Below are positions 1 through 35,965 of a stretch of DNA of 36,051 nucleotides, piece after piece. The notes under the pieces are model-generated. The model was not told the origin of the DNA and made no database searches. It worked only from the letters and a program-made list of their open reading frames with translations. Numbering within the stretch: the stretch's first letter is position 1; the number at the start of each line of letters is the position of its first letter. Made by a program: the position numbers and the translations under genes. The stretch is from a virus, in the IMG/VR virus record IMGVR_UViG_3300023257_000065, positions 1 to 36,051 of that record; one strand, written 5' to 3'.

Positions 1-627
1 CCCGTTATTGTCCGCCGTGCCAGTCACAACGATCACATCTCCCGCTTGTAGTTGAGCGTAGATGGTTCCCCCGGCTGCGTTCTCAGTAATCGAGCCTTCG
101 CCAGTGGCACCCACGTTCACGTCAACGGTGACTGCATGAGCCGCAATTGGATTGTAGTCACTGGTATAGACGGATGCAGAGTCATCGTACAAGATGCCCT
201 CGTAGGCAGACATATAACGGTAATCCACTACTGCGCCGTTCTTGAAGAACGCGGGGTGCAAGCTAAAGCCCGGCAGGGGAATCGCTGAAATGTCCCAGCT
301 ATGCACGTTGGCTGCATACGAATACCGCAAGTAGAACTTGGGTATCTCTACCATTACCTGTCCATCGGTTCCAGTTAGATCTGATGCTGTCAGACAATCC
401 GCTTTTAGGGTACTGTCAGTGGCACATAGGTAGTACAATATGACGCCATCGTCTCCCATAACGCAGCGTTTCATGCTACCTTGAATTGCCAGTGCTGCAC
501 TGCCAGGTGAACTTCCTGTCACCACTCCCGCTAATGTCCCGGTGCGCCCGTAGGCGTCGGTGCTCTCGTTCCAGGTCAAGCCGCAGTATAAGCGGCTGTC
601 TTGTCTACCTCGTCCTCGTATTGGCAT
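1..627 (-). CDS. Tail fibre / tail structural protein, partial (N-terminal 209 residues)
   Basis: The frame is open for 209 codons from an ATG at 627 to the left edge, so the C-terminus is missing. A GGAGAG SD lies just upstream. The stretch with MKRCVMGDDGVILYYLC, DGQVMVEIPKFYLRYSY and HSWDISAIPLPGFSLHPAF, followed by a YRYMSAYEGILYD motif, resembles a recurrent tail-fibre/baseplate-associated domain seen in many phages (recognised from memory, not searched). It is the last visible gene of a leftward structural operon, 9 bases after the upstream structural gene. The likely role is in the virion, perhaps host contact. The domain assignment is good; the exact fibre role is inferred. Confidence 0.75.
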   Translation of the reverse strand, partial: MPIRGRGRQDSRLYCGLTWNESTDAYGRTGTLAGVVTGSSPGSAALAIQGSMKRCVMGDDGVILYYLCATDSTLKADCLTASDLTGTDGQVMVEIPKFYLRYSYAANVHSWDISAIPLPGFSLHPAFFKNGAVVDYRYMSAYEGILYDDSASVYTSDYNPIAAHAVTVDVNVGATGEGSITENAAGGTIYAQLQAGDVIVVTGTADNNG

Positions 628-636
628 AATTCTCTC

Positions 637-1671
637 CTATACCCACGCAATAATTTCAACGATAGTACCCGGGATAGCTGACCCCAGATATAATGTGCTG
701 GGAGCGGCTTCCTGATTTAAGTCGAATGAATAGTAATAATCTCCCGCTTTCAGTGTGATCCATGGAGCGGCTGGTCCAGCTACGTGTCCAGTCACGAACG
801 CAGCCCGAATAGCCACATCGGTCCGGGCCTGAAACTCAAATGCCCTGCAATTAGCTGGCATAGCCTGTGAGTATTCCGTGTCGGCTACCGTTAGTGTCAC
901 GTTGTACGTCACCGGCGTAGCCGTCACTGGGTCAGCCCACACCTTATTGGTCGTCCCTGGCGTGGTCTGGTCTATCTTCACGCTGATAATGCTAATCAGC
1001 AGCTTGACGATACCACGCAGATATTGTTGAACTGAGCCAGCTGCATCAGTTACTACCGCAGCACCAGTAGTTGTGCCAAGTGCTGCATTATCACCATCTG
1101 CCACGGTAATACCAATCTTAGCCGCAACGAGGGTAACCAGACCTCGTAGGTACTGTTGGACTGTGCCGACACCGTCAGTTACTACTTTCGCGCCGGTAGT
1201 TACTCCAATAGTTGCTCCAGCTCCTCCACTAGTAACTACAGTAGCATCTACTGGAACCGACGCCTGATCACTGGGTAGGACCACCGGAAACGACTCGGTC
1301 ATAGCCTTCTGGCCCTTAACACTGTCAAAGCCATCTACATCAGCAACGTTGACCTTTCCCAGATCTCTAGCTACACGATCTGAGACGTCCACTTGCTCAC
1401 TATCAAGTGTTACAGGAACATCTCCTTGACCCGTAGCATCTACAGGAACAGGATTTGCGTTGTTTACGTCAGCGTCACCCACTTGTTGGTTTGCATTAGT
1501 TGATAGACGTAAATCTGGTGTTACCTCTGCTCTGTCATCCGTTATACCATCCTTGAGCTCGATGGCTCCAATTGAAATCTCTCCCGCTGCTAGAGACACT
1601 GGCAGCGTAGCTATATAATTACCATTCTCGTCAACTAGTCTGACGATCCTAACAAAATCGTCTGCAGCCAT
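637..1671 (-). CDS. Phage structural protein with internal repeats (putative tail/baseplate)
   Basis: The start is the ATG at 1671, preceded at 5 bases by GGAGG; a longer frame to 1710 has no better SD. The 344-residue product opens with FVRIVRLVDENGNYIATL and has a low-complexity middle rich in V, D, T, A and G. It contains two similar segments, VVTDGVGTVQQYLRGLVTL and VVTDAAGSVQQYLRGIVKL, separated by about 40 residues. Such VTDA-x-LRG repeats are familiar in phage tail and upper-baseplate proteins. The C-terminal third (from about residue 245) looks like a beta-sandwich. The gene starts on the last base of the methyltransferase stop codon, so it is probably translationally coupled. A virion role is inferred. 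Confidence 0.7.
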   Translation of the reverse strand: MAADDFVRIVRLVDENGNYIATLPVSLAAGEISIGAIELKDGITDDRAEVTPDLRLSTNANQQVGDADVNNANPVPVDATGQGDVPVTLDSEQVDVSDRVARDLGKVNVADVDGFDSVKGQKAMTESFPVVLPSDQASVPVDATVVTSGGAGATIGVTTGAKVVTDGVGTVQQYLRGLVTLVAAKIGITVADGDNAALGTTTGAAVVTDAAGSVQQYLRGIVKLLISIISVKIDQTTPGTTNKVWADPVTATPVTYNVTLTVADTEYSQAMPANCRAFEFQARTDVAIRAAFVTGHVAGPAAPWITLKAGDYYYSFDLNQEAAPSTLYLGSAIPGTIVEIIAWV

Positions 1672-9550: not shown

Positions 9551-9875
9551 AGTCAAGGTAGTTGAGTTGGGGATGGATAAGATCGTGGATATAAACATAC
9601 TCCTCGATCTCATTGAGGTGTACGCCAAGAACATCGAGAACGACATCAAGGACCTCAAAGTGCAATCACACATTGAGGGAGACGTCGATGGAACAGCGTT
9701 CACGATCCTGTCATGGCCGGACCTCGAGGAGACCATCGAAGAGGTCTTCGTTGCAATCCACCGCAGCAGGGATGGTCTGGTTGAGCGGGCACTCGATGTG
9801 GGTCGACAAGATCGAGTCAACACTGCTAAGGGCCTACGACCTAGGCTCAGAGAGGAAGGTGATCTCGGATCATGA
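9537..9875 (+). CDS. Small unknown acidic protein
   Basis: The ATG at 9537 lies behind AAAAGGAGGTAGCA; the frame opens further upstream but without an SD. The 112-residue product has a helical acidic N-terminal half (KIVDINILLDLIEVYAKNI) and a basic C-terminus. Its TGA overlaps the next ATG (ATGA), which supports this frame to its end even though another frame from about 9799 also looks protein-like. No family is recognised. Confidence 0.6.
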   Translation: MLQDEVKVVELGMDKIVDINILLDLIEVYAKNIENDIKDLKVQSHIEGDVDGTAFTILSWPDLEETIEEVFVAIHRSRDGLVERALDVGRQDRVNTAKGLRPRLREEGDLGS

Positions 9876-10117
9876 TGTCACTAGAGGAGCTGCAAGAGCA
9901 GGAGGACTGGCACGTTAGCGAGTTCATCGAGAGGATCATGCGCATCCTAATGGACTAGGAACACATCCGCCACGGGATCGCTATCCAGTTTGCTGAGGAC
10001 AGAGAGGTGGACTATGAGATGATCGCGCAGGCTGGAGAGGAGGAGTGGGACAACCCCACGGATCTGCAAGCAGCGTGGCTCCGCAGGCACATCATGAACG
10101 TAATAGAGAACTACTAG
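9872..10117 (+). CDS. Small gene interrupted by an in-frame amber codon
   Basis: The ATG at 9872 opens 28 codons ending RIMRILMD, then TAG at 9956-9958. The same frame continues for 52 sense codons (EHIRHGIAIQFAEDREVDYE ... WLRRHIMNVIENY) to TAG at 10115. Both parts have the acidic, helical character of neighbouring early proteins and no other frame looks better. Possibilities are amber readthrough or suppression, a nonsense mutation or sequencing error, or a second gene starting at ATG 10018 behind AGAGGTGG. Most genes here end in TAG, so general recoding is unlikely. Confidence 0.55.
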
Positions 10118-10136: not shown

Positions 10137-10220
10137 ATGATAGGCAGAGTACTTAGGGTGACGAGAATAACGAGCGCGGCGAGTCGGAATGTCAACACCG
10201 TACTAGAAAACTATTTGTAG
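10137..10220 (+). CDS. Tiny basic peptide
   Basis: ATG at 10137 after GGAGAGGAGAG encodes 27 residues (MIGRVLRVTRITSAASR...). Its TAG (10218-10220) contributes the first base of the next SD. It is too short for family recognition. The spacing and SD pattern match its neighbours. Confidence 0.5.
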   Translation: MIGRVLRVTRITSAASRNVNTVLENYL

Positions 10221-10229
10221 GAGGTATAC

Positions 10230-10334
10230 ATGGAAGAACTATTTCTCGCGATAGCGTGGGCAATGGGCGTAGTTGGGGCTTCAATACTGGTGTACTCCGT
10301 GTTCGTGATAATTATGTGGAAGGTAGAGGAGTAA
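10230..10334 (+). CDS. Tiny single-pass membrane protein
   Basis: ATG at 10230 after TAGGAGG at 6 bases encodes 34 residues. Almost the whole peptide is one membrane helix (WAMGVVGASILVYSVFVII) ending in MWKVEE. It is one of three tiny membrane peptides in this early cluster (also 10706 and 10848). Role unknown; perhaps a host-membrane modifier. Confidence 0.65.
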   Translation: MEELFLAIAWAMGVVGASILVYSVFVIIMWKVEE

Positions 10335-10705: not shown

Positions 10706-10813
10706 ATGTACGAACCGCCCGAAAACGCTAGAATAGGTGAGATGATCTTACTTGTACTAGCCATTGGGGTTATTGGGGCAGCGTTTCTTTGCATCATCAC
10801 AACGTTCTTGTGA
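10706..10813 (+). CDS. Tiny single-pass membrane protein
   Basis: ATG at 10706 after GGAAAGGAGA encodes 35 residues with a short polar N-terminus (MYEPPENARIGE) and one strong membrane helix (MILLVLAIGVIGAAFLCII). No family is recognised. Confidence 0.65.
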   Translation: MYEPPENARIGEMILLVLAIGVIGAAFLCIITTFL

Positions 10814-10847: not shown

Positions 10848-10982
10848 ATGGAGGGCGTAGGTGTTGTTAGTATCGTAGGTGCTATAGCCTTTGCGGTACT
10901 ATGTTGGAGACTGCGCGAGCTCATACGCTGGGCGAACGAGGACACACCGGACGAGGTCGGAAAGTATCTAGACCATAGCTAG
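10848..10982 (+). CDS. Tiny membrane-anchored protein with a charged tail
   Basis: ATG at 10848 after GGGGAAAGGAG encodes 44 residues. A membrane helix (VGVVSIVGAIAFAVLC) is followed by a charged amphipathic tail (WRLRELIRWANEDTPDE), probably cytoplasmic. Third membrane peptide in the cluster. Function unknown. Confidence 0.65.
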   Translation: MEGVGVVSIVGAIAFAVLCWRLRELIRWANEDTPDEVGKYLDHS

Positions 10983-20256: not shown

Positions 20257-22797
20257 ATGGATCTACTCGACACTTTGTTTGAAGACCTCTCGTCGGAAGA
20301 GTGGATCGAGGTTCGTATTATCGACAGGGACCGAAAGAGTAAGCAGCTCTTCGTTCAGTCGGCCGCTAAAGTATATGAGATAGCGGGTAAGGTAGGAGAG
20401 AAGGCAAATGTATATTTCGGGGTAAGTGCCCGCCTAGGTAAGGATGGGCACAAGGAGTCCGTTGCACGGTGTCGGGCTGTATGGGCCGACATTGACGGGA
20501 AGAGCTTTCCTGGCGGCAAGGAGGATGCGCTTGCCGCAGTGGATTCCTTCGTCTTCGCCCCCTCGTTCGTAGTCGACAGTGGTAACGGGTTCCATGGGTA
20601 CTGGCTCCTCGTAGAGGACGCGAAACCTACAGACGCTGAAGACCTAATGAAGGAAATCGGGGCATGTGTTAACGGAGACAGTACCTGGGACGCTTCAAGG
20701 GTACTTAGAGTACCAGGGTCCTTTAACGTTAAGGGGAATGTACCCATTCCATGCGTGCTTGTTCAGTCGCGCCCCGACCTGAAGTACAACCTCGATGACC
20801 TAGCTGCTGGTTGTAAGCTTGATGGTAGTACAGTACAACGCATTGTCACGGGAAGCTCTGAGGGCTACACGTCGAGGAGCGAGCGTGATTGGGCTGTTAC
20901 TACTGCCCTGGTGAGTAAGGGAGTCTCGGACCTTGGAGTCCGACAGATATTTGAGGAACGCGCAATCGGAGACAAGTTCTCCGAGGAGGGAGGAGACCGA
21001 TACCTTTCGCGAACGGTAAAGCAGGCTTCAAAGCGGCTAACACCTACGGCGATCAGTATCCTAACGGAGCAAGAAGATTGCTACTATGTAGATACGGCAA
21101 AGGGGATACGTCAGGTATCAACGTTTAGGATTGACCCGCATCGTCTGCTACACGGCGACGTACAGGATGCAATTATGGGCGACATCATCGCAGAAGGATT
21201 AGTATGGAAAGATGTCATACTGCCGAAGGCGGCGTTTAACAAGCGCGACGCACTACTGAGACACCTAACCTCGGTGGAATGGCAGTGGACAGGAACCGAC
21301 GATCATGTTAGGCTCCTACTTCCTTTTCTGGTTCACAAGCTGCGTGCACTCAGCGATCCCATGCCGAGTGCGAGAGCTGTCGGAGTGCTCGGACGGCACG
21401 AGGACTACTGGGTTACTCCCCAGGGAACGTTCTCGGCGACCAAAGAGTACCCACAGCAAGAAGCCCCAATCCTTTTCATGTCGATGAAGCGCACAGCTCT
21501 CCCGGTGCAATACGACCGGGCTGGCGACGATGCTCTAGCTGAGTTCTTAGGTGCGTTGTTTCCAACGCTACTCGAGATAAACGACCCGGAAGTAATATGG
21601 CCTATACTTAGCTGGTATATGGCCACGCCGTACAAGGTGTTGCTAAACAGCGCAGGGGTCTCGTTTCCTACCCTGAACGTGTACGGTACTAGGGGTTCAG
21701 GAAAGACGACAACGTTAACTAGGGTCATGCAGCCGTTACTAGGGTACACAAAGCCCTTCTCCCATGACTGTTCGACTACACCGTTTGTGCTGCTGAGTCT
21801 GCTTAGCTCCACGAACTCCATCCCGATCTCGTTTAGTGAGTTCCGCAGGTCTGGGATGCGTGAGGCTGATTACACAAAGTTACTCAGGTACGTACTCTTA
21901 GCGTACGACGCTGGATATGACGCGAGGGGTCGACCTGACCAGACAACTACAGAGTACCAACTGAGTGCTCCGTTTACCCTTGATGGAGAAGACGCACTAT
22001 CAGATGCTGCAGCTCAGGAGAGGTCAGTAATCATAAACCTCCGGCCAGAGACGGTGAAGGAGAATGGTACCTGTTGGACCGCGTACAACAAGCTAGTGAC
22101 TCTGCCTCTGGGAATGTTCGCGGGACATTATATACGTTACACCCTTTCGCATTCGGAGAGCTCGATTGTGACTGAGTGGCAACGAATGTATGACCTAACC
22201 AAGGAGGCGTTTCCCGAATCTATACCGGACCGCGTTCGACGCAACATCGCAACTACGTGTCTCGGAACGTGGTCGCTTAAAGGGTTCCTAGCACAACACG
22301 GTCTCGACGTAGTAGACCTAGACGCGGCTTTTGTAAGGTCGGTCTTTGGACCCTCTATCGGGGACATCATCAACCTTACGACTGGCAGAACTATGATCCT
22401 AGTCGACGAGCTGATTGAAGACGTAATCAACATTGTAGCTGCTCCCGACGTTCGTGTCCCTTTTACTTACAAGTATGACAGTCAGCGGAACGTACTATGG
22501 TTCCACATGACTACGGTGTTGAATTGGTGGCACCGCAAACGACGAACCGAAGGTAGGGCGTCACTAGACTCAGCTGCAGTTAAGCGGCAGCTCGCAGAAA
22601 GGAGTGTGCATACTTTTGTAGGGCCCGGTCAGTACGTTGTGGGTCGTAAGTCCGTTGCCCTGTCCGGAGCCGTTCGCTGGATGTACGGAATCGACATCGC
22701 AGTAGCGTGTGACGCCGGTCTGGACATTCCCGACCAGGTGGCGGATGCTACAATAGTAGTATATGGAAAAGGAGAATCCGATGCAAGAATTAGCTAA
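20257..22797 (+). CDS. Primase-helicase (AEP-type primase fused to P-loop helicase)
   Basis: The ATG at 20257 follows TTGGAGGTTGGC; a frame extension to 20245 lacks an SD. The product is 846 residues. The N-terminal 190 residues look like an archaeo-eukaryotic-type primase: DID at 78-80 as metal ligands, SGNGFHGYW (108-116) with the conserved His, and WDASRVLRVPGSFN (144-157). A middle linker leads to an ATPase with Walker A GTRGSGKT (477-484) and downstream helicase-like motifs (SFSEFRRSG). The enzyme should prime and unwind phage DNA. It overlaps queC by 17 bases, tying replication to the modification genes. Confidence 0.87.
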   Translation: MDLLDTLFEDLSSEEWIEVRIIDRDRKSKQLFVQSAAKVYEIAGKVGEKANVYFGVSARLGKDGHKESVARCRAVWADIDGKSFPGGKEDALAAVDSFVFAPSFVVDSGNGFHGYWLLVEDAKPTDAEDLMKEIGACVNGDSTWDASRVLRVPGSFNVKGNVPIPCVLVQSRPDLKYNLDDLAAGCKLDGSTVQRIVTGSSEGYTSRSERDWAVTTALVSKGVSDLGVRQIFEERAIGDKFSEEGGDRYLSRTVKQASKRLTPTAISILTEQEDCYYVDTAKGIRQVSTFRIDPHRLLHGDVQDAIMGDIIAEGLVWKDVILPKAAFNKRDALLRHLTSVEWQWTGTDDHVRLLLPFLVHKLRALSDPMPSARAVGVLGRHEDYWVTPQGTFSATKEYPQQEAPILFMSMKRTALPVQYDRAGDDALAEFLGALFPTLLEINDPEVIWPILSWYMATPYKVLLNSAGVSFPTLNVYGTRGSGKTTTLTRVMQPLLGYTKPFSHDCSTTPFVLLSLLSSTNSIPISFSEFRRSGMREADYTKLLRYVLLAYDAGYDARGRPDQTTTEYQLSAPFTLDGEDALSDAAAQERSVIINLRPETVKENGTCWTAYNKLVTLPLGMFAGHYIRYTLSHSESSIVTEWQRMYDLTKEAFPESIPDRVRRNIATTCLGTWSLKGFLAQHGLDVVDLDAAFVRSVFGPSIGDIINLTTGRTMILVDELIEDVINIVAAPDVRVPFTYKYDSQRNVLWFHMTTVLNWWHRKRRTEGRASLDSAAVKRQLAERSVHTFVGPGQYVVGRKSVALSGAVRWMYGIDIAVACDAGLDIPDQVADATIVVYGKGESDARIS

Positions 22798-23494
22798 CAC
22801 TCCGCAGAAGGCTGTTGTAATACTAAGTGGAGGCCTAGACTCGACAACGGTCTTGTCGCTAGGCATGCGGGGCCTTATACTAGATGCTAGCGGACCCGCT
22901 ACCCCTTGTGCCGCGGTATCATTCCGGTACGGACAGCGCCACGAGAAGGAGGTGGAACACGCTGAACAGATTGCGACGTACTGGAACGTACCGTTCTTTG
23001 CGTATGATATCCCTAGAGTTGCCACGTCGCATCTGACACTTCCCGGTACTGACCTAGATCAGAAGCTTTCTGACTACGTCGCGGTGAGACCACTGTCGTG
23101 GCATCCACATCGTAACGCACTCATGATCATCTTGGCTGCTCAGCTGGCTTACCGTAGAGGTACAAACATCGTCATGGGTGGATGGCATCAGGATGACAAT
23201 GCATACCCTGACTGTACGTATCCCTTCCTCCGAGCGATGGAGGATATGCTGCGTGTCAGCGGTGACGATGACGGATTTCGAGTTCTCTCGCCGTTGCTAC
23301 ACATGAAGAAGGTTGAGATCGTCAAGGCCGCAATACGATCGAATGCCCCAATTGAGCTTACATGGTCATGTTACAAAGGAGGTGAGAAACAGTGCGGTAC
23401 GTGTGGAACCTGTAAGCAACGAAAGTTAGCGTTTAAGGAGGCCGGCGTGCCAGACCCTGTACCCTATGCCGACCCAACAGTGTACGACGACTAG
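22781..23494 (+). CDS. queC: 7-cyano-7-deazaguanine (preQ0) synthase QueC
   Basis: The ATG at 22781 follows AAAAGGAGAATCC; the ATG at 22763 lies upstream of that SD. The 237-residue protein has the PP-loop SGGLDST (16-22) for ATP and the zinc site C197, C205, C208 and C211 (GEKQCGTCGTCKQR), all diagnostic of QueC. It converts 7-carboxy-7-deazaguanine to preQ0 using ATP and ammonia, in the cytoplasm. Length is normal. It starts within the primase gene and leads the deazaguanine island. I saw no QueF, so preQ0 rather than preQ1 is the expected end product. Confidence 0.95.
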   Translation: MQELANTPQKAVVILSGGLDSTTVLSLGMRGLILDASGPATPCAAVSFRYGQRHEKEVEHAEQIATYWNVPFFAYDIPRVATSHLTLPGTDLDQKLSDYVAVRPLSWHPHRNALMIILAAQLAYRRGTNIVMGGWHQDDNAYPDCTYPFLRAMEDMLRVSGDDDGFRVLSPLLHMKKVEIVKAAIRSNAPIELTWSCYKGGEKQCGTCGTCKQRKLAFKEAGVPDPVPYADPTVYDD

Positions 23495-23503
23495 GAGGGT
23501 AAC

Positions 23504-24157
23504 ATGGAACAGAAGGAACTGCGGAAGGTTTTCGGAATTGCAATCCTGCTAACAGGTCTGTACTTTATGTGCGGTCTGATAGCAAACGTAACCGCGGCAA
23601 AGATGTTCACGGCGTTCGGGCTAGTGATGCCGGCAGGCACACTTGTCTTCGCCGTCACGTTTACACTCCGTGACAGCATCCAACGAGTGCTCGGCAAGCG
23701 TGTTGCACAGCTTGTGATTCTAATAGGAGCACTCCTAAACTTACTGATGGTACTGTACTTTCAACTTACGATTGGTTTACATCCTGCCAGTTTCTGGCCG
23801 TACCAGGGTGCCTACGCGACGATACTGGGAGCAGTACCACGTATTGTAGCTGCGTCGATCGTTGCGATGATTATAAGCGAGTTAATAGATACAGAGGTGT
23901 ATAGTATCTGGGTACAGAAGATCGACCCAGATAGAAAGTACCTTTGGACAAGAGTCATCGCATCGAATGCTGTCTCGGTGCCGATCGACTCGGTAGTGTT
24001 TCAGGTGATAGCGTTCGCCGGGGTATTTCCACTCGCGGGGATGATAGCAGCGATATGGGGCCAGACATTGTTCAAGTACGCAGTGACAATCGTATCCGTT
24101 CCATTGATCTACGTCACGCCCAACATCAAGAAGCCCATCACGGGTGAGGAGGTATAA
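23504..24157 (+). CDS. yhhQ: YhhQ/QPTR-family queuosine-precursor transporter
   Basis: ATG at 23504 follows TAGGAGGGTAAC. The 217-residue protein has about six membrane segments (for example IAILLTGLYFMCGLIANVTA and LVILIGALLNLLMVLYF) with YhhQ-type motifs NVTAAKM, FAVTFTLRDSIQRVLG and SELIDTEVYS. The family imports queuosine precursors such as preQ0/preQ1. Alongside a full synthesis route it gives a second source of the deazaguanine base, or perhaps balances the pool in the host. Confidence 0.92.
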   Translation: MEQKELRKVFGIAILLTGLYFMCGLIANVTAAKMFTAFGLVMPAGTLVFAVTFTLRDSIQRVLGKRVAQLVILIGALLNLLMVLYFQLTIGLHPASFWPYQGAYATILGAVPRIVAASIVAMIISELIDTEVYSIWVQKIDPDRKYLWTRVIASNAVSVPIDSVVFQVIAFAGVFPLAGMIAAIWGQTLFKYAVTIVSVPLIYVTPNIKKPITGEEV

Positions 24158-24186
24158 ACGTGCAAACGCCTATCGAAAGGGGTGCA

Positions 24187-24618
24187 ATGGCGGACAGCTC
24201 TCAAGAGTTTGTGGGAGCGCTGGAGGCTGTAGTTGCCGATCTGCAAGCGATGTACGAAAGTAAGGGGGATGACTACGACCAGCTCACCCCGGTATGGCAT
24301 CGCATGATGTTCGGCAACGTCTCATGGGCTCACGAGGTTGCAAAGAAGGCCGACAGACTCACGAGCCTCGTTATGGTTGAGCTGCATGGTAAGACGCCGA
24401 ACTTTGACTCACTCTCAGACAACGTTATGGACATTGCTGTATACGCAGTGATGTGGCTCGCGTTTATGCGAGTGTGTAAGCAGCAGGACCGCAACTCCGA
24501 AGATTCCGTGAAGCCTAGTGTATCCCAGATACGGGAGATGGCGAAGGGAGAGACTTCAGATCCTGAAGTGTCGCTGAAGCCCAGCGATGGAGTACGTAAG
24601 CTCTTCGGGAAGAAGTAG
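24187..24618 (+). CDS. DUF1599/MazG-like nucleotide-modification-associated protein
   Basis: The ATG at 24187 follows GAAAGGGGTGCA; an upstream GTG at 24160 is also in frame. The 143 residues contain YESKGDDYDQL, EVAKKADRLTSLV and DNVMDIAVYAVMWLAFM, the pattern I associate with DUF1599 (nucleotide modification associated domain 1), a relative of MazG-type pyrophosphohydrolases. Acidic and Lys residues that would bind metal and phosphate are present. The C-terminal 40 residues are a Ser/Pro/Lys tail. Inside the island, it might clean up or remodel a nucleotide; inferred. Confidence 0.7.
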   Translation: MADSSQEFVGALEAVVADLQAMYESKGDDYDQLTPVWHRMMFGNVSWAHEVAKKADRLTSLVMVELHGKTPNFDSLSDNVMDIAVYAVMWLAFMRVCKQQDRNSEDSVKPSVSQIREMAKGETSDPEVSLKPSDGVRKLFGKK

Positions 24619-24621
24619 AAC

Positions 24622-24717
24622 AAGGGAGGCCTTGTGCCTCCTTCGGCTGCGTCGAGCATTTTCACGAAAGAGGGGTCTAGACTGGGTGTTCGACGTAGTC
24701 GAAGGGTGCATACACCC
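24622..24717 (+). promoter_or_regulatory. Structured leader upstream of queD
   Basis: Three hairpins: AAGGGAGGC/GCCTCCTT (24622-24643, one bulge), TTCGAC-GTA-GTCGAA (24689-24703, perfect) and GGGTG-CATA-CACCC (24704-24717, perfect). Competing outer pairing GGGTGT/ACACCC (24684-24689 with 24712-24717) exists. This is the only sizeable gap inside the island. No known preQ1 riboswitch pattern was recognised. Confidence 0.45.
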
Positions 24718-24736
24718 TAGAGAGGAAGGTAGTAGA

Positions 24737-25096
24737 ATGATTGGCAAATTTAACAAGAAGTACATGCTCAGGAAGGTAGTGTGGATAAGTGCAGCACACC
24801 ACCTACGTTGGGTTAGCTCCCCGTGCTCGGAGGTGCACGGACACAATTGGAGGGTAACGGTAATCTGCGGCACTGACGAGCTCAACGACCGAGGAATGGT
24901 CGTCGACTTCTCGCTGATATCGGAGGTCGTAAAGAAGTACGACCATACAGACCTAAACACTCAGCTAGAGCAACCAACTGCCGAGATGCTCGCTAACCGC
25001 CTAGGCGCAGAGATTCCAAAGTGCCTTGCTGTAGGAGTACAAGAAACGGAGGGGAACGAGGTATGGTGGATCAACCCACTCCCAGGCATAGCATAA
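24737..25096 (+). CDS. queD: 6-carboxytetrahydropterin synthase QueD
   Basis: ATG at 24737 follows AGAGAGGAAGGTAGTAGA. In the 119-residue product the zinc histidines H22, H34 and H36 (HHL and VHGHNW), the catalytic C30, the D69-H70 pair and the PTAE motif (80-83) match QueD/PTPS. It turns 7,8-dihydroneopterin triphosphate made by FolE into 6-carboxytetrahydropterin. The gene overlaps the next ORF by 34 bases. Length is typical of QueD. Confidence 0.93.
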   Translation: MIGKFNKKYMLRKVVWISAAHHLRWVSSPCSEVHGHNWRVTVICGTDELNDRGMVVDFSLISEVVKKYDHTDLNTQLEQPTAEMLANRLGAEIPKCLAVGVQETEGNEVWWINPLPGIA

Positions 25097-25362
25097 CCAA
25101 AACGGTAGAGGGAATTCTGTGGGAGGTTATTCTACACTACTACCCAACTGACTCGCAAGCTATGAGCCGCCGTGTACTAGTCTTTGCTGAGACTGCAGAA
25201 TGTGCTATCCGGCTTGCTAGGGACTATGACCGGGGACTCGAGGATTTCAGAGTAGAACGTAGGGACCTCGTACCCGAGTACCGAGACGAAGTCTGTAGCG
25301 TCAAAGCGATTGGTGATTACGTTCAGATCGCGAAGGAGGGTATTACACAGCATGGTACCTAA
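25063..25362 (+). CDS. Unknown protein embedded in the deazaguanine island
   Basis: ATG at 25063 follows CGGAGGGGAACGAGGT inside the queD gene. The 99-residue product (SITKTVEGILWEVILHYYPT; MSRRVLVFAETAECAIRLAR; DFRVERRDLVPEYRDEV) looks like a small alpha/beta protein. I recognise no family. It overlaps queD by 34 bases and queE by 11 bases, so it is translated with them in all likelihood. Placement suggests a link to modification, but it may be an unrelated inserted gene. Confidence 0.68.
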   Translation: MVDQPTPRHSITKTVEGILWEVILHYYPTDSQAMSRRVLVFAETAECAIRLARDYDRGLEDFRVERRDLVPEYRDEVCSVKAIGDYVQIAKEGITQHGT

Positions 25363-25957
25363 ACCCGGATACGACATAAACGAGATCTTCTACTCTATTC
25401 AGGGTGAAGGTCACTGGACAGGGCGGCCGGCGATCTTTGTAAGGTTCGCAGGGTGCAATCTCCACTGTGAATGGTGCGATACCGACTTCTCCCTGCAGTA
25501 CGAACTTGAACTTGACAAGTTACTGCTCAAGATCAAACATACGGCACAGTGCACTAATGTAATCCTAACCGGCGGGGAACCCACTCTCCAAGACCTTGGA
25601 CCTTTGGTAGAGGGACTGCGGAAGGCCCGTTTCTGGGTTGCCATCGAAACCAATGGCATCTGCTGGGAGCGCATACCTAAGGAGATTGACTGGGTGACGA
25701 TGTCACCGAAGGAGTTAGGCAAAGTTTACATCTGCGACGAGCTGAAGCTTATATACACCGGCGAGGAGGATCTAGCTAAGTACCACGCGGTCGGTCGCCA
25801 AGCGTGGTTGCACGGCGAGCAAGTGCAGGCTCTGCACTTCCTGCAGCCGTGTGAGCGAGATGGTGTAATGAACATTGAAGAGACCGTACAGAAAGTAAAG
25901 GAGAATCCAACATGGCATCTAAGCTTACAAACACACAAGTTGATCGGGCTACAATAG
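25352..25957 (+). CDS. queE: 7-carboxy-7-deazaguanine synthase QueE (radical SAM)
   Basis: The start is ATG 25352; GGAGG lies 12 bases upstream, rather far, so translation is probably coupled. The 201-residue protein has FYSIQGEG (13-20), the radical-SAM cluster motif C35-x3-C39-x2-C42 (GCNLHCEWCDTDF), TGGEP (73-77) and SPK (118-120), all typical of QueE. It contracts the ring of 6-carboxytetrahydropterin to 7-carboxy-7-deazaguanine. It overlaps folE by 46 bases. Confidence 0.95.
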   Translation: MVPKPGYDINEIFYSIQGEGHWTGRPAIFVRFAGCNLHCEWCDTDFSLQYELELDKLLLKIKHTAQCTNVILTGGEPTLQDLGPLVEGLRKARFWVAIETNGICWERIPKEIDWVTMSPKELGKVYICDELKLIYTGEEDLAKYHAVGRQAWLHGEQVQALHFLQPCERDGVMNIEETVQKVKENPTWHLSLQTHKLIGLQ

Positions 25958-26484
25958 CTCTAGCAGTCCGACGGGTCCTCGCAGCAATCGGAGAGGACCC
26001 AGAACGCGAGGGTCTCGTAGGTACTCCGCACCGAGTAGCAAAGTTCTGGTCGGAGTTTATTGACTATAAGGATGACAACCTAGATACTTCTTTTACGTCG
26101 GTCCGAGCCGACCAAATGGTTGTCATCCGGAACATCCGGGGGTGGTCGTTGTGTGAACATCATCTACTTCCGTTTTCGTTTACCGCGGCTGTTGGGTACA
26201 TTGCAGAAGAGAAGATCCTCGGGGCATCCAAGCTCGTAAGAGTCGTACAACTCTATGCGCACCAACTACAGATTCAAGAACGACTAGTGGAGCAGATTGC
26301 AACCCATGTACAGCATCTTGCAGGTGCCGACGACGTGGCAGTATGTATGGTGGGTCAGCACACCTGTATGCAGATGCGGGGGGTGCTGTCTGAAGACTCC
26401 GAGATGATCACACAAGCCCTACGCGGCCGATTTCTCTCTAAGCCCGAAGTCCGTCAGGAGTTCATGCAACTACTAGCCCTATAG
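25912..26484 (+). CDS. folE: GTP cyclohydrolase I FolE
   Basis: ATG at 25912 follows AAAGGAGAATCCAAC within queE. The 190-residue protein shows EGLVGTPHRVAKFW, the zinc site C81/H84 (SLCEHHLLPF) and C152 (QHTCMQMRGV), and the substrate region GASKLVRVVQLYAHQLQIQE. It opens the pathway by converting GTP to dihydroneopterin triphosphate. A phage copy frees the pathway from host folate control. Confidence 0.95.
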   Translation: MASKLTNTQVDRATIALAVRRVLAAIGEDPEREGLVGTPHRVAKFWSEFIDYKDDNLDTSFTSVRADQMVVIRNIRGWSLCEHHLLPFSFTAAVGYIAEEKILGASKLVRVVQLYAHQLQIQERLVEQIATHVQHLAGADDVAVCMVGQHTCMQMRGVLSEDSEMITQALRGRFLSKPEVRQEFMQLLAL

Positions 26485-26500
26485 AAAGGAGAACAAAAAG

Positions 26501-27280
26501 ATGAAGCTATCGATTATTGCACCGCCCAAGCTACACCATTACGAGGCGATTACGGATTTCCATCTTCTCCCCGTGCATCACCTATTTGAAGCCGGGATGA
26601 GGCTGTTCTACCGGGAACTAAGAGACCGCGGCGACTACATCATTCTGGATAACGGGGTAACAGAGAGGGGTACTCCCTGCGGAGTTAATGTTCTTGCGGA
26701 GTACGCGCTTACCGTTGGGGCTCAGGAGATTGTGTTGCCGGACGTCTTTGACGATGGTCCAGCAACTGTGGACTCTACGTTCACTGCTCTTGAGGAGTTC
26801 AAGAAACTCTCAACCAGACCTCTGGATGTTAAGCTGATGGCTGTTGTGCATGGTAGCACCGAGGCCGAATGGACTCAGGTGTACAACACCTTTGTTGCAT
26901 GTGATGACATCGACGTAATTGGGTTCCCGAAAGTGATGACGCGAACCTTTGGGAGTAGATTCCTGCAGCTCCGAACCATGTTCCAGACGGAAGTAGTACA
27001 ACGGTCGATGTACAAGGAGTATCACCTACTCGGGGTATGGGCCAGTCCAAGTGAGGTTCCGAACTACAAGCGGTACTTCCCCTGGATCAGGAGCATCGAT
27101 ACCTCACTGCCAGTAATGTCCGGGGTATTCGGAGAGGACATCTCTATCAGCGACCACTTTGGTACATTCAGGAAGCACCAACTCGATGAGGGCCTCACAG
27201 TAGACCCCAACCCAGAGGCCACGCTACGAAACATTGCAGCGTTCCTCAAATGGACAGAGCATGCACAGGGAGTAGGGTAA
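26501..27280 (+). CDS. dpdA: DpdA-like DNA guanine transglycosylase (TGT superfamily)
   Basis: ATG at 26501 follows GAAAGGAGAACAAAAAG. The 259-residue protein is shorter than tRNA TGT and has the phage-type pattern YIILDNGVTERG (D50), EIVLPDVFDD (D81), KLMAVVHGST and VIGFPKVMT, matching TIM-barrel TGT-like proteins of phages. Next to queC, queD, queE and folE, the natural reading is a DpdA that exchanges guanine in DNA for preQ0 or a derivative. No tRNA-binding zinc site is seen. Its TAA overlaps the polymerase ATG by one base. Confidence 0.85.
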   Translation: MKLSIIAPPKLHHYEAITDFHLLPVHHLFEAGMRLFYRELRDRGDYIILDNGVTERGTPCGVNVLAEYALTVGAQEIVLPDVFDDGPATVDSTFTALEEFKKLSTRPLDVKLMAVVHGSTEAEWTQVYNTFVACDDIDVIGFPKVMTRTFGSRFLQLRTMFQTEVVQRSMYKEYHLLGVWASPSEVPNYKRYFPWIRSIDTSLPVMSGVFGEDISISDHFGTFRKHQLDEGLTVDPNPEATLRNIAAFLKWTEHAQGVG

Positions 27281-29730
27281 TGGCCATCGAACCGAAGGCA
27301 CCCGGAGCCGACTGTGAATCCTGTCCCCTTCAGGGCGCGAAGATGGTTCCCGGGACCGGCCCGACCACGTGCAAAGTTGTAGTGGTAGGAGAGGCGCCCG
27401 GGGTTACGGAGGCACGACTGGGAAAGCCGTTTGTTGGGCCATCGGGAGAGCTACTCCGACGGACGCTCAATGGTTACGGGATTGACGACAAGGACATTTA
27501 TGTCACCAACGCTGTACTCTGTCATCCGGCCAGGAACAAGTTACCGCCGAAAGCTGTACACTGTTGCCGTCGTAGACTACTTGCAGAGATCGTGGCCCAT
27601 AAACCGGAGGTAGTGTTAGCACTCGGTAATACTGCTACACATGTACTCCTCGGAGACATCGGAGGGATCACGACGATAAGAGGTCGCCAGTATGAGGCTG
27701 TCGGCCTTAAAGACATCGTAGTAGTACCGACACTACACCCGGCAGCAATCCTAAGGCGACCATCGTCGTTTAGGGACTTCTCGGCAGACATTAGTAAGGC
27801 GTTTAACCGAACTGTCAACTCGGTTAGTACCCATCAAGGTCCCGTGGACCGACGGATAATCCTCGACCAGCAGGAGGCTGTAACCTTCCTTCAGCACCTC
27901 GAGCGAATGGCTACTACAGCTACTAACGAGGCTGGAGCACCAATGAAGGTTACGGTTGACCTGGAAACCTCTGGGTTTGACCCCTTCGACGACTACATCC
28001 TGTGCATCGTGTTCTCGTGGAAGGAGGAGCAGGCTGTCGTTCTGGGCCTGAACCTCATTGAAGACTCCGAAGTAAGGAAGGCACTCCTTGATGCGTTTAC
28101 CAGTGTCCACATCGCTTGGGGCGGCCACGGAATGAAGTTTGACCGTAAGCACCTAGTTAGTGCGCTCGGAGGTGTAGGGCCAAAGGTTTCGTGGGACACC
28201 CTACTACAGCACTACATGCTCGACGAGCGCAAAGGGACCCACGACCTCAAGAAGCTGGCAGCGGGTAATCTGAACGCTCCCAACTGGGAGGGAACTATTA
28301 AGCAGTATCTAAAGAAGCCGAGTACCGATTCGTACGCATTGCTTCCTGAGTCGGTACTCTATACGTACGCACTACACGACGGAGACTACACTACGAGGCT
28401 CCGAATGCTTCAGGAGTCAGAGTTGGCTTCTCGGAAGAGGCTACAGTGGGTATACGATAACCTACTGGTTCCCGCGTCCAACGTACTGGCAGACATAGAG
28501 CTCTTTGGAGCTCGAATCGACCAGTCCGAGCTCGAAGGACTGGATGATGAGCTCACGGGAAAGATCTTCGACCTAGAGTGTGAACTCTGTACGATGGCAG
28601 GAGATCCCGGGTTCAATCCTAATTCTACTCAGCAGGTAGGACGCATCATATTCGAGAAGTTTAACCTACCACATATCAGGGGCAACAGTACCGACGCGGA
28701 TGTACTTGAGGCTCTGGACAAGAAGACGGGCCACCCATTCGTTAAGCTGATGCGCAAGCAGAGAAAGGTAGCGAAGCTACACTCAACCTATGTTAAGGGT
28801 ATCGAGCGGCAGTTGTCGAGTGACGGGCGAGTCCGTTCATCGTTTATGCTGCACGGAACAGTTACGGGAAGGCTCTCGTGCCGCGACCCCAACCTACAGA
28901 ACGTCCCACGCAAGGGATCGGGGATACGACGTTTGTACATCCCGTCAACTCCTGCAGACTTTCGAAGGATGTTCAAGCACGTATACGGAAGAGTACCCCA
29001 GAACATTCGAGACGACGATGAGCTGGTAATTATGCAGGGCGACTATAGTCAAGCAGAGCTTAGGGTCCTAGCTTGGATTACCAAGGACCCATTCCTGCTT
29101 GAAGTCTATCGCTCCGGGAGGGATCTACATAGTGAAGTCGCAGAGAGAATGTTCGGACCGGAGTATACAAAAGAGCAACGCGTTGCCGCAAAGATGGTCA
29201 ACTTTGGTCTCGTCTATGGAAGGACGGCAAGAGCTCTTGCGAGGGATACTCGAATCCCAGGTATGTCCTACGAAGAGGCCGTGGAGTACATCAACGACTT
29301 CTTTCGTAAGATGCCACGTGTTACCGACTGGTACCAGAAGACCAAGGCTCAGGTCCGTCGAACAGGAATGGTTACTTCCCTTGTCGGGAGAGAACGACGA
29401 TTCGGAATTGTCACCCAAGAGGTGCTACGTGACGTCGAGAACCAAGCTGTCAACTTTATGTGTCAGTCTCCAGCAAGCGACTTCACCCTTAGATCGCTTT
29501 GTAGAATGCACGAATGGTGTGTTAGATCCGGAGCTGCCCACATACTGGTCACTGTCCACGATAGCATTATTCTTGAGTGTCCTAGAAGACTGGTACCTGT
29601 GGTCGGGAAGAAGCTCGCAACGCTAATGCAGTCGACCGCAGAGGAAATGATCGGTGACGACGTTGTACCGTTTCCTTCTGATATTGAAGTAGGATCAAAC
29701 TGGGAGGACCTGAAAGGAGTAAAGGTGTAG
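27280..29730 (+). CDS. Uracil-DNA glycosylase-like domain fused to PolA-type DNA polymerase
   Basis: ATG at 27280, coupled to the previous stop, gives 816 residues. Residues 1-170 match family 4 UDG: C12, C15, C81 and C95/C96 for an Fe-S cluster, GEAPG (37-41) and HPAAIL (153-158). Residues 224-375 are a DEDD exonuclease (D227, E229, then GGHGMKFDRK and a final DGDYTTR). Residues about 390-816 are family A polymerase with motif A DYSQAELR (588-595), motif B R634...K638...NFGLVYG (F642) and motif C VHDS (759-762). It is the replicative polymerase; the UDG part may sense or remove uracil at the fork. UDG-Pol fusions are known in SPO1-like phages. Confidence 0.93.
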   Translation: MAIEPKAPGADCESCPLQGAKMVPGTGPTTCKVVVVGEAPGVTEARLGKPFVGPSGELLRRTLNGYGIDDKDIYVTNAVLCHPARNKLPPKAVHCCRRRLLAEIVAHKPEVVLALGNTATHVLLGDIGGITTIRGRQYEAVGLKDIVVVPTLHPAAILRRPSSFRDFSADISKAFNRTVNSVSTHQGPVDRRIILDQQEAVTFLQHLERMATTATNEAGAPMKVTVDLETSGFDPFDDYILCIVFSWKEEQAVVLGLNLIEDSEVRKALLDAFTSVHIAWGGHGMKFDRKHLVSALGGVGPKVSWDTLLQHYMLDERKGTHDLKKLAAGNLNAPNWEGTIKQYLKKPSTDSYALLPESVLYTYALHDGDYTTRLRMLQESELASRKRLQWVYDNLLVPASNVLADIELFGARIDQSELEGLDDELTGKIFDLECELCTMAGDPGFNPNSTQQVGRIIFEKFNLPHIRGNSTDADVLEALDKKTGHPFVKLMRKQRKVAKLHSTYVKGIERQLSSDGRVRSSFMLHGTVTGRLSCRDPNLQNVPRKGSGIRRLYIPSTPADFRRMFKHVYGRVPQNIRDDDELVIMQGDYSQAELRVLAWITKDPFLLEVYRSGRDLHSEVAERMFGPEYTKEQRVAAKMVNFGLVYGRTARALARDTRIPGMSYEEAVEYINDFFRKMPRVTDWYQKTKAQVRRTGMVTSLVGRERRFGIVTQEVLRDVENQAVNFMCQSPASDFTLRSLCRMHEWCVRSGAAHILVTVHDSIILECPRRLVPVVGKKLATLMQSTAEEMIGDDVVPFPSDIEVGSNWEDLKGVKV

Positions 29731-29731
29731 C

Positions 29732-30025
29732 ATGAACCTAGACCAGTTTAAGAACGTAATGATACAGAAGCTCAACGAGAACGAACATAAGGGAGGCTGG
29801 AGTACTGATACGCTTCAGCAGCTACTGACTAAGCTCTGCGCAGAAGCTGAGGAGCTTATGGGAGAGCTAGCAGCGTGGAACATTGACGCAGACGCTGTAG
29901 TAAAGGAGTGTGCAGACGTTGCTAACTTCGCGTACGCTATCGCTGACCGGGTAACTCAGCTACACCCCAAAGAGTTAAACATGTGGCCGAACGGTATACC
30001 TGCAGGTGCAGAGGAGGACTCATGA
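29732..30025 (+). CDS. MazG-like nucleotide pyrophosphohydrolase
   Basis: ATG at 29732 follows GAAAGGAGTAAAGG. The 97-residue protein has the all-helical MazG pattern: LLTKLCAEAEELMGELAAW with the ExxE pair, then VVKECADVANFAYAIADRV with ExxD. These bind magnesium for hydrolysis of nucleoside triphosphates. In a phage it may remove dUTP-like or damaged nucleotides or lower host alarmones. It overlaps the RuvC-like gene by 4 bases. Confidence 0.8.
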   Translation: MNLDQFKNVMIQKLNENEHKGGWSTDTLQQLLTKLCAEAEELMGELAAWNIDADAVVKECADVANFAYAIADRVTQLHPKELNMWPNGIPAGAEEDS

Positions 30026-30630
30026 CAACTGTGCTCGCCTTTGATCCGGGAGAAACAACAGGCTGGGCCTGTGCGTACTCAGAGACTGGGAAGTTAGAGA
30101 CGGGGGAGCTCCGGTACTGGCGTGGAGCCGATCGACTCATCCGAACTGTCCGACCTGACATGGTTGCCATTGAGTCGTTTCGGCTCTACCCGGGTAGGGC
30201 ATTGGGTCAATCATGGTCCGACTTTCCTCCTGTGCAAGTAATTGGGGTGCTACGGTTCATTTGTGAGGACCTAGCACACGTTCGGTATGTACTTCAGTCA
30301 GCCTCTGAAATGAAAGGGTTCGTACTCCGTATGCCGGGGCTTAAGATATCGGTACACGAGTACGATGCATCCCGCCATGCAATGTTGTACCTAAGGAGAA
30401 CTAGCGATGACGAACGGTTCAGAGATTACTTTCGGGCCAAACCGCAAGTTAGAGGTGCCCTTGCACGCGTTGACGGACTCACAGCAAAAGACGATGCTCC
30501 GAGTCCCTGGAGCCGTAAAGAGGATCGGGAAGATCCTAGTGCCGCAGGAGCTCCGGCTACTGGAGATGTTGGTGCTTCTGGTTCCGGAGATCCAAATGTG
30601 CGAGGGGGTCTGGTCGTGGTACCAAAATGA
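30022..30630 (+). CDS. RuvC-like resolvase/nuclease with a long out-of-frame overlap
   Basis: ATG at 30022 follows GAGGAGGACTC. The 202 residues begin VLAFDPGETTGWACAYS, with first catalytic Asp and GxTTG turn, then MVAIESF with the Glu, typical of RNase H-fold RuvC-like phage proteins; DASRHAMLYL may hold the last acidic residue. The core ends near residue 128. The remaining 74 residues (Ser/Ala/Gly-rich) overlap the helicase gene in another frame by 224 bases. It probably resolves branched DNA before packaging or in recombination. Confidence 0.78.
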   Translation: MTTVLAFDPGETTGWACAYSETGKLETGELRYWRGADRLIRTVRPDMVAIESFRLYPGRALGQSWSDFPPVQVIGVLRFICEDLAHVRYVLQSASEMKGFVLRMPGLKISVHEYDASRHAMLYLRRTSDDERFRDYFRAKPQVRGALARVDGLTAKDDAPSPWSRKEDREDPSAAGAPATGDVGASGSGDPNVRGGLVVVPK

Positions 30631-32068
30631 ACGACGAGTTGAGAAGTCACTCATCAAGTTCGGAGGAAGAAAAGACGCTCAGCTCAAGCACTTCGAGCGT
30701 GCAGATGAACTCTATCCGTTCCAACGTGTTGGGGCAGAGTTCATCAATATGGCTGGGAGAGCACTCCTGTGCGACGAGACAGGACTGGGCAAGACTGCAA
30801 CCTCAATCGCAGCTGTAGTGAGCTCTCAGATGATGATGAGGGTCTTAGTTATCTGTCCGAACTCACTCAAGCTCTGGTGGGCCGACGAGATACGAAGGTG
30901 GGACCCTACGGGTCGTAGAGTAACCGTAGCAAACTCCGCTACTCGAGAGGTTGACATTAAGCGGTTCATGAGTGGTACCGGCTGGCTAGTTGTTAACTGG
31001 GAGCTTGCAAGAATCGGGACGGAGTTGCTGGATCAGTTTGTATGGGACTGGATGATCTGTGATGAGGCACATAGAATCAAGAATAGACGTACTCTCACGT
31101 ACAAGAGTGTCTCGCAGCTAATGTTTACTAGACTCATTCTTGCAACTGGAACCCCAATGTCGAATGAGCCTGGAGAGCTCTGGTCACTGCTTCACTTGCT
31201 AGCCCCTAGCGAGTTTCCGTCGTACTGGAGGTTCTATGAAATGTATACCGAGTATAAGGCGAACTACTTTGGGGGGAGAGAAGTAAGGGGAGTTAAGAAC
31301 TCCGAACTGCTACGACGTGAGCTAGCTCCACGGATGCTCCGGAGAACCAAGAAGGAGTTCCTCCCGCAGCTTCCAGACAAGACGTATAAAACCGTACATG
31401 TATTGATGACTCCTCGTCAATTGAAGATGTACAAACAAATGGTCAAGGAATCGATCATACGGCTAGAATCGGGGGAATCTGTCGACGCGGTCGGAGCAAT
31501 TGTAGTTATACTGCGTCTCCAACAAATCCTCTCTACAACTGCTACTTTGGACGAGTTCGACAGTTCAGGCAAGTTGGATGCTGCTTGTGAACTTATTGCT
31601 GACGCTGTCGAAGAAACGAAGGTTATCGTGTTTACTAAGTTTCGGAAGACCGTTGAGGCTCTAAGTCAACGCCTTGACAAGGGCAAGGTAAAGCATGTGG
31701 TTATTATGGGGGGAATGACTGGTGGGGTAGCTCCAGTCGTCAAACAGCTACAGGAGGATGACGAGGTACGTGTTGCCGTTTGTACGTTACAGGCTGCGGG
31801 TGAGGGTCTGACTATGACTGCTGCTACCAAGGTGATCTTCTTAGAGAAAAACTACAACCCGGCCACCCAACAGCAAGCTGAGGACCGGGTTCATAGAATC
31901 ACTCAAGAGAAAGCTGTACAAATAATCACCGTGGCCTGTAGAGGCACAGTTGATGATTTCGTACAGGAGATACTCGAGCGTAAGGGTGCGATGACCCATA
32001 AAGTGCTAGGCACCGAACTCCTCACGCACCTCAAGGAACAGGAGGAGGTGGGAGTAGATAGCCGGTAG
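30407..32068 (+). CDS. Snf2-family DEAH helicase/ATPase
   Basis: ATG at 30407 follows AAGGAGAACTAGCG, which is why this start is preferred despite the overlap with the RuvC-like gene. The 553-residue product has FQRVGAEF with DETGLGKT (123-130), CPNSLKLWW, VVNWEL, DEAH (219-222), ATGTPMSN, then the second lobe VIVFTKFRKTVEAL, AAGEGLTMTAATKVIFLE and QAEDRVHRITQ. This is a complete Snf2/SF2 translocase. Phage homologues act in replication or recombination restart. It ends by running 38 bases into the convergent lysis gene. Confidence 0.92.
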   Translation: MTNGSEITFGPNRKLEVPLHALTDSQQKTMLRVPGAVKRIGKILVPQELRLLEMLVLLVPEIQMCEGVWSWYQNERRVEKSLIKFGGRKDAQLKHFERADELYPFQRVGAEFINMAGRALLCDETGLGKTATSIAAVVSSQMMMRVLVICPNSLKLWWADEIRRWDPTGRRVTVANSATREVDIKRFMSGTGWLVVNWELARIGTELLDQFVWDWMICDEAHRIKNRRTLTYKSVSQLMFTRLILATGTPMSNEPGELWSLLHLLAPSEFPSYWRFYEMYTEYKANYFGGREVRGVKNSELLRRELAPRMLRRTKKEFLPQLPDKTYKTVHVLMTPRQLKMYKQMVKESIIRLESGESVDAVGAIVVILRLQQILSTTATLDEFDSSGKLDAACELIADAVEETKVIVFTKFRKTVEALSQRLDKGKVKHVVIMGGMTGGVAPVVKQLQEDDEVRVAVCTLQAAGEGLTMTAATKVIFLEKNYNPATQQQAEDRVHRITQEKAVQIITVACRGTVDDFVQEILERKGAMTHKVLGTELLTHLKEQEEVGVDSR

Positions 32069-32348
32069 CCCAGGCTATCACCAAAGCTGTAGTGACCGTA
32101 AGGGCCACCCCACCAACAAGTCCGAGGAGCCATACTGCTCGATCGACACCACGACACCAGATGTGCATCTCACGCTCAAACACTTCTAAACGCTCTATAC
32201 GATCAACGAGACTCTCAACCTCGTCCCGACTTACTAAGCGGACGTTAATGGTATCTAGCTGTTTTTGAACGTGTGCGAACTTAGTTTTCATGAGATCGTG
32301 GAGACCTTGAATCCTCTCTTCGAGTATACCGTTTATTTCAGGAGGCAT
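32031..32348 (-). CDS. XhlA-like lysis accessory protein (coiled coil plus one membrane helix)
   Basis: ATG at 32348 follows GGAAGGAGTATT. Residues 1-65 are a helical heptad-like region (QLDTINVRLVSRDEVESLVD; RIERLEVFEREM), then one membrane helix (AVWLLGLVGGVALTVTTALV) and a Pro-rich end. The order matches XhlA/haemolysin-type proteins that accompany holins. It is the last gene of the leftward lysis set and meets the Snf2 gene tail to tail with a 38-base overlap. Confidence 0.72.
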   Translation of the reverse strand: MPPEINGILEERIQGLHDLMKTKFAHVQKQLDTINVRLVSRDEVESLVDRIERLEVFEREMHIWCRGVDRAVWLLGLVGGVALTVTTALVIAWATGYLLPPPPVP

Positions 32349-32364
32349 AATACTCCTTCCTTAA

Positions 32365-35300
32365 CTAGTTCTGTATATGGGTAACGACGAGGTACTGATC
32401 CAGAATACAAATCGCTATTCCCATGCAGAACTTCTGTGCAACATACTGCACGTTGTCAAAGTCGAAGCCTCTCTCGTTGGTCAGTGCTGCCCCTAAGCTC
32501 GATCCCCGGGCATACTGCATCAGAGCCGTTGCGTCATTAAACTGAACAACTCCACCGATAGCTTCCTTACTCATCTGATCCCTGACGAACCATTGGAAGT
32601 TGGAATCGTCAACTGGAATCTCGGCTTGCACAGGGCTCTCTACGTGTTTCCCGTATACATAGACGGCCAAGATGGAATGGTGACCCGTCGTGCTCCCGGG
32701 GACTTCGATGTCGGGGTGCCGTGTATGGAAGCCTGTTACTACGTCTGAAGGTACGTACAACCCTCCAATACTCTCGACCCAGACATCCATGGTATCATTC
32801 CGGCCCGCCGGCACATCCCCCATCGGTCCGTTAGGATCAGTCTTGTCGAGTGGAACTGTTCCGGCAGTGTTGTTGCCTGTGTTACGCCACCCAACTTTTA
32901 CGTTCTGCAGTCTGTTACCGTTCTCGTTGAGGACCTCTACAAAAATGCTGTGGTCCCCGTGATTCTCTTCTGGGGTCAACAAGTGGAGGTGAACCAGTTT
33001 CGCGTAGCGGCCCCCAGGTTCTAGTTCCATGTCTGGCTCTACAATTGTAACTCCCCAATCAGCTGGAACGTCGTTCCCCATCTCTATAGGGTCCGCCGGC
33101 TCCGGCTCCGGTCCGGGCGTAGGCTCTGGCTCTGGACCGGGTCCAGGTTCCACTTCGCCCATTCGGAGTGCAGCATCCTCCCACTCATCTAAGCATTCAA
33201 ACGTCTCCCAGCCGTATGAAGGGCCGGCTGTGAACATTGCAGCTCCTACAACGTAATCGTCTAGACATAGCTGTTGATCGTACTTGTGCATGCCCTTTAC
33301 AAATACCTCACGATCTATTCCTTGACGCCATCCAACGTCTTCGTAGCCCTCGACAACTGCGTGTGTAAGTCCACACTCGGTTATGAGAAGACCCCATCCC
33401 CACTGTGCTGCCCATTTCATCTGGGTGCGATACCGTAGTAACCGTGCATTCAGTTCCCAGTCCCAGGTGTTCCATGTGTACTCGTGCACACATATGTATC
33501 CTCGGGGAGGTGTTACAGCGTCGAAGGTACGAGGGAAGTGTGTGGAGTCAATTAAAGGTTCCCCCTCCCATCCGAAGTTGCCGGTTGGTAGGCAGAACAG
33601 ACCAATCTTGACGGCAGGGTTCTTCTCCCAAATACTACGGGCGAACTGTGCTTGGAACTGATCGAACTTTGCAAGGTCGCCAGGTGAGGTAGTGTTGTTT
33701 ATTGCCTCGTTGTAGACTTCAGCGACGTGGATGTCGTTAATGACAGATTGGAACCGCGTCGCGAAGTCAATTGCACACCCCTCTGGGTTGTCACTGAATG
33801 GCTGTGAGTCTACGTGGATACGGTATACAATCTCAGTGTCGGGGGCGGCTAACTGAATCGCCTGAAGGTCGCTCACTGGTAGCCCCATTACCTTAACCAT
33901 TGGAGGCTGCAACCTCTCGATAGCCTCCAGGGTTTGGGGACTCATTATCTGGATGTGTGGACAGAGCTTTGAGTACATTGGTCTGTTCTCCTCCTTGGTG
34001 ATCATGTGTTGTACAAATGGTAGCTCATTGTTTAGTGCAAACGGCCCGTTATGCCACGTTGTGTGTAGACCCTGATCTTCGAAGCTGTCGGCTTGTTGGG
34101 CACTTAGTAACTGTACTCCAATGAGCCACTGCATCCACGTGAAGAAGTTTGGGTCAGCGTCGATAGTACGCTGCATGATGTCGGTGTATGTTATCTGTTG
34201 CTGAACGGTATTCCTTGCGTACCTGCTATCATTGTGGCTGGCTACAACATATCCCCCTTCTGTTGCAATCATTGGTACGTATGGGAGAAGGCCTACCTCT
34301 GCTAACAGTCTTCGATGTCCGAGCCACGATCCGAAGCAAGTGTCGTCCGTCTCAATAGTTGCTCCGGGGTTCTTGTGCTGCTGCCTTATTAGGTTAATGT
34401 GGTGCTCGTCTACCTGCCACGGGAGAAAGACCCACTTGTCTCCAGTGTTCTGGCGATACTCAAGGGAGACCTCAGCAAGCTTAGCGAGGTACTCTTCATG
34501 TGTCATTGGGTACCCAACTTGATTGACAGCGTCGTACGGATAATCAGGTGGGTGGTTTAGGGGGTACGGGTGAATGTTTGTCCAGCCGTGACCCTCGATG
34601 AAGATGTCTCTTCGCTCTTCGGGAGACATGTACTCTAAATAGGGGTTGATTATGTTTCCGTCGGGGTCGGGATATAGCCACGTAGTGCATGCAGGAGTTC
34701 CAGGGTAGCCGCCCAGAGCATTGATCTTATAGGCAGCTGGAACGAACGCTCTCCAGCAACGCTCTACCCAGTCCTTCGGGATCTTGAAGTCGTTGTGTGC
34801 CCACTCTCCTCCACATTCTGGTTCGTTCTGGTAGTAAAAATAGTTGACACCTTTCTCAATAAGCCGGCCCACTGTGTCTTCCATGCGCGAGTCAAAACGT
34901 GCGTCAGGTCTATTGAAGAGACGAATGACACACTCAATGCCGCGCATGTGAAACATGTCGACAATACTCAGCCCACCGTAGTACGGATTAGGCTGAAGTG
35001 TCGATCCTCCACCGTCGTCAATGAGTAATACCCAGCTAGCCCACTCCGCTGTACGATCGATGTACCACGTAAGGTCAGCGTGTGCGTGATACTGTATCGG
35101 CGTCCAATGCACCCCGGGGGAGGGGCTACCGTACCCAGGGTACCGTTGGATGGTTATCTCTGGCATTGCCGTTCTCTCCTTTGGCCACTCAACGTATAGA
35201 TGAAGCTGGTACAAGTGGCCATCCACGTACTTGCTGATGACTTTGTCTCCACGGATCCACGGTGGTCGTGTTTCGGTACCTTGTGTATCTGCAAGACTCA

Positions 35301-35550: not shown

Positions 35551-35570
35551 ATCCCTCTCCCTAGAGGTAG

Positions 35571-35586: not shown

Positions 35587-35588
35587 AT

Positions 35589-35960: not shown

Positions 35961-35965
35961 GATAT

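Follow-up and report, generated by a model that had tools for sequence, protein, structure and literature searches.

In the RNA phage Qbeta, a leaky UGA codon in a virion gene gives rise to coat protein and A1, and a role is known for each of them. One start could likewise give a shorter and a longer protein at the locus described here, an open frame interrupted by TAG at position 9956 of a 36051-base stretch of viral DNA (the whole stretch is called the window below); however, the codon here is UAG, the gene is an ORFan, the phage is a DNA phage and there is no evidence of the long product. In code-15 phages, which translate TAG as glutamine, several genes contain the reassigned codon, most of them late structural genes, and suppressor tRNAs have been predicted (PMC9523058). 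At the present locus, too, coding sequence continues beyond an in-frame TAG, but here a single TAG lies in a single small gene, TAG is the commonest normal stop and no tRNA was found.

In none of the features tested does the locus differ from a phage gene hit by an ordinary amber mutation or a base error: there is one gene with one in-frame stop, frame and codon usage are intact on both sides, and no further features are present. Such an origin accounts for all the observations. With a probability of roughly 0.78, TAG 9956 arose either by a recent amber mutation or through a base error of the metagenome assembly, in a probably dispensable ORFan gene.

The interrupted frame and its coding signal

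The features of the locus are collected in Table 1. The first-pass annotation had described a frame that opens at ATG 9872, is broken only by TAG 9956 and then continues for 52 sense codons; the sequence confirms this description, and the frame ends at TAG 10115-10117. Its ATG overlaps the TGA of the preceding gene (ATGA), and its Shine-Dalgarno (SD) sequence is the strongest among the starts tested, assuming an anti-SD of the E. coli type. The preceding gene has no Pfam match, and its comparison with PHROGs gave only a hint, to phrog_32750 (E 0.0026), a family of unknown function.

Table 1. Coordinates of the interrupted gene, its immediate surroundings and the preQ0 cassette of the same window.
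Feature	Position	Strand	Remarks
Upstream ORFan gene, 112 aa	9537..9875	+	own SD strong, -13.0
Shine-Dalgarno region GAGAGGAAGGTGATC ahead of ATG 9872	9850..9871	+	duplex with 16S 3' end -18.5 kcal/mol
5' part of interrupted gene, 28 codons	9872..9955	+	coding score 0.399 per codon
In-frame TAG interrupting the gene	9956..9958	+	ranks top of 519 stops scanned
3' part of interrupted gene, 52 sense codons	9959..10114	+	coding score 0.332 per codon
GTG, first in-frame ATG/GTG/TTG past TAG 9956; possible restart, weak	10007..10009	+	SD energy -5.8
Terminal TAG of the frame	10115..10117	+	same frame as ATG 9872
QueC-like	22763-23494	+	
Vut_1/YhhQ-type transporter	23504-24157	+	
6-pyruvoyl tetrahydropterin synthase/QueD-like protein	24587-25096	+	
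QueE-like radical SAM	25310-25957	+	
GTP cyclohydrolase I	25912-26484	+	

Coding potential was scored as a codon log-likelihood with 16 confident genes from the window as the training set and their other five frames as the contrast; windows of 28-52 codons then average about 0.14 per codon in coding sequence and about -0.13 in wrong-frame open sequence. The score of the 28 codons before TAG 9956 (0.399) was reached by none of 9581 wrong-frame open windows of 28 codons, and that of the 52 codons after it (0.332) by none of 3496 such windows of 52 codons in the confident genes. These similarly high codon-usage values agree with the earlier claim that composition is alike on both sides, and synonymous-codon preference alone points in the same direction across the TAG, more weakly. 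The openness of 9959-10114 is in itself weak evidence, because 2130 of 20000 dinucleotide shuffles of this segment (~11%) are also open in frame; none of the open shuffles attains the observed coding score. Coding signal flanks TAG 9956 on both sides, no other gene in the window is clearly interrupted, and 9872-10117 is not merely open by chance.

A scan of the window for stops preceded by at least 20 open codons and followed by at least 16 retained 519, and TAG 9956 is the only one that runs into strongly coding sequence without an ATG, GTG or TTG for 16 codons. At the second-ranked stop, TAG 23492, the next gene begins three codons further on, with an ATG and an SD of its own.

Same-frame successions of genes across a TAG were seen at two other places. 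At 23492-23506 (+ strand) the QueC gene leads into the Vut_1 gene, with 220 open codons, and at 627-639 (- strand) gene 637-1710 leads into a tail gene at the left end of the window, with 212 open codons to the end. Both pairs are ordinary neighbours, the downstream gene starting within a few codons.

The read-through protein of 81 residues was modelled with AlphaFold2 on the single sequence, with glutamine chosen as the residue at the TAG. The model is all-helical, with four helices (mean pLDDT 78.8, pTM 0.59; as a single-sequence fold it calls for caution), and residue 29, the TAG site, falls in the loop linking helix 1 and helix 2. A fold search with this model returned no structural relative below E 1. 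The high coding score on both sides, the uniqueness of the TAG among 519 stops and its position in a predicted inter-helix loop together point to one gene of ~81 codons with one interruption.

Decisive here are the 16 codons of 9959-10006, which separate the TAG from GTG 10007, the earliest codon that could serve as an ordinary start. They score 0.338, a value that 7 of 16091 wrong-frame windows attain, as do 91 of 12406 open shuffles of this stretch. Were 9872-9958 a gene for a 28-aa peptide and 10007-10117 another, for 36 aa and read from GTG 10007, perhaps through fission of an older gene, these 16 codons would lie between them; yet they score as coding. Such an arrangement would be in keeping with the neighbours of 34-44 codons at 10230-10334, 10706-10813 and 10848-10982, and with a GAGG located 8 bases ahead of GTG 10007. 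However, an SD as good as that of GTG 10007 or better was found at 65-81 of 198 internal in-frame start-like codons, so that it is ordinary for internal codons, and the structural model unites both parts as one helical protein. Because there is coding signal throughout the gap and the SD of GTG 10007 does not rise above background, two independent genes are disfavored, and we regard this arrangement as unlikely.

Readthrough, suppression and bypassing

Programmed or otherwise functional amber readthrough would yield a short product of 28 aa and a long one of 81 aa from one start, and it would account for the coding signal that resumes right after TAG 9956, for the 52 codons that follow with no stop and for the location of the TAG between two predicted helices. 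A plain nonsense change predicts the identical sequence, however, and pseudoknot-free folding revealed no stable RNA structure, either around the stop or beyond it (z -0.60, -0.41 and +0.70 against shuffles), nor was any homologue with a conserved TAG found in INPHARED, IMG/VR or GTDB. Stimulatory RNA structure near the stop is frequent, though not universal, in programmed readthrough. The intact and well-kept downstream frame is explained equally by functional readthrough, and does not tell a recent mutation from it. On balance, functional readthrough appears distinctly improbable. Its narrower form, a gene-specific leaky UAG that would fix how much 28-aa helix is made relative to the 81-aa helical protein, with neither a phage suppressor tRNA nor a stable downstream RNA structure, is very improbable. 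The first-pass annotation had raised a recoding interpretation, which holds insofar as both sides of TAG 9956 form one coding unit and not two independent genes; the step from there to recoding is accompanied by no RNA signal, suppressor tRNA or other internal TAG.

Amber suppression or reassignment of TAG, whereby a suppressor tRNA of the phage or its host would insert an amino acid at the codon, makes a wider prediction. TAG is the commonest stop among the 36 other called genes of the window, terminating 16 of them and lying within none, in line with the earlier statement that it serves as a true stop elsewhere; efficient suppression would therefore lengthen many proteins. The search for a suppressor tRNA proposed earlier was made with ARAGORN, and neither the window nor the two conspecific contigs described below, which together represent an incomplete genome, yielded a tRNA. 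As the 36051-base record is itself incomplete, such a tRNA could sit outside the window, although suppression still seems highly improbable. Genome-wide reassignment of TAG was rejected, given that this codon is the commonest stop and that clear interruption was seen in no other gene.

Ribosomal bypassing like that in T4 gene 60 would involve take-off from the GAC immediately 5' of the TAG and landing on a downstream GAC, for which the 14th and 18th codons after the TAG are in-frame candidates. GAC is a common codon, however, the stretch to be skipped is coding-like and in the same frame, and no stable hairpin occurs just after the TAG (z +0.70), making this mechanism extremely improbable.

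Relatives of the window and the origin of the stop

Searches with the interrupted gene provided little comparative material. No match was found among INPHARED phages at the DNA level, and at the protein level there was a single match of 29 residues (E 0.9); no homologue was found in IMG/VR or GTDB genomes, comparisons with PHROGs and Pfam gave weak matches only, to unrelated families, and no paralogue was detected inside the window. Two IMG/VR contigs from other samples align closely with the window as a whole, L003 at 99.95% identity over 9706 bases and L004 at 99.99% over 9468 bases, and are by this measure the same virus recovered from other metagenomes. Their combined coverage is restricted to positions 22662 to 36050 of the window and thus stops well short of the interrupted gene. 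L003 also extends ~360 bases beyond the right end of the window. A more distant contig, L002, has in common with the window, over the partial sequence of that contig, only an exonuclease at 29% identity.

The conspecific contigs allow a rough estimate of how often a stray nonsense change might be encountered. They differ from the window at 7 positions in ~19.2 kb, four of these within ~25 bases of a contig end, and the corresponding rate, with or without the contig-end differences, is about 6-13 per 36 kb. In the downstream segment of the interrupted gene, 21 of 468 single changes (~4.5%) would create a stop. The resulting estimate, which is rough and applies before selection, is 0.3-0.6 nonsense changes per 36-kb window; at such rates, a sizeable minority of windows of this size would be expected to carry a stray nonsense change, and a single instance is unremarkable.

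With TAG 9956 as a nonsense allele or base error, 9872-10117 would represent a single ORFan of ~81 codons, lying in a series of small ORFan genes in a tailed-phage genome. Translation from ATG 9872 would normally stop at TAG 9956 and release a 28-aa peptide, probably corresponding to one helix of the intended helical protein, while the 3' part (9959-10114) would be made at the level of background readthrough or not at all. We infer that the TAG is recent and non-functional and that the gene is dispensable, dispensability being an assumption. As it stands, the interruption matters little beyond annotation: gene callers will shorten or split the gene at 9872-10117, and the 28-aa ORF should be labelled as the 5' portion of a gene that is interrupted. 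Were the TAG conserved and read through, the locus would offer a rare case, in a double-stranded DNA phage, of amber readthrough specific to one gene.

Other features of the window

The C-terminal NVIENY of the interrupted frame (10084-10117, + strand) resembles NTVLENYL in the next ORF, of 27 aa (10190-10220, + strand), and each lies just ahead of a purine-rich SD. This likeness may be due to chance, because the 27-aa ORF carries no coding signal (score -0.05). On the opposite strand, a gene of 1061 aa (32365-35550) has no PHROG match at E 0.01 and was found elsewhere only in a conspecific contig.

The window also contains a cassette for the 7-deazaguanine (preQ0) pathway (22763-26484, + strand; Table 1), which is suggestive of modified DNA or of queuosine metabolism. 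Within this cluster, the transporter is the less usual member.
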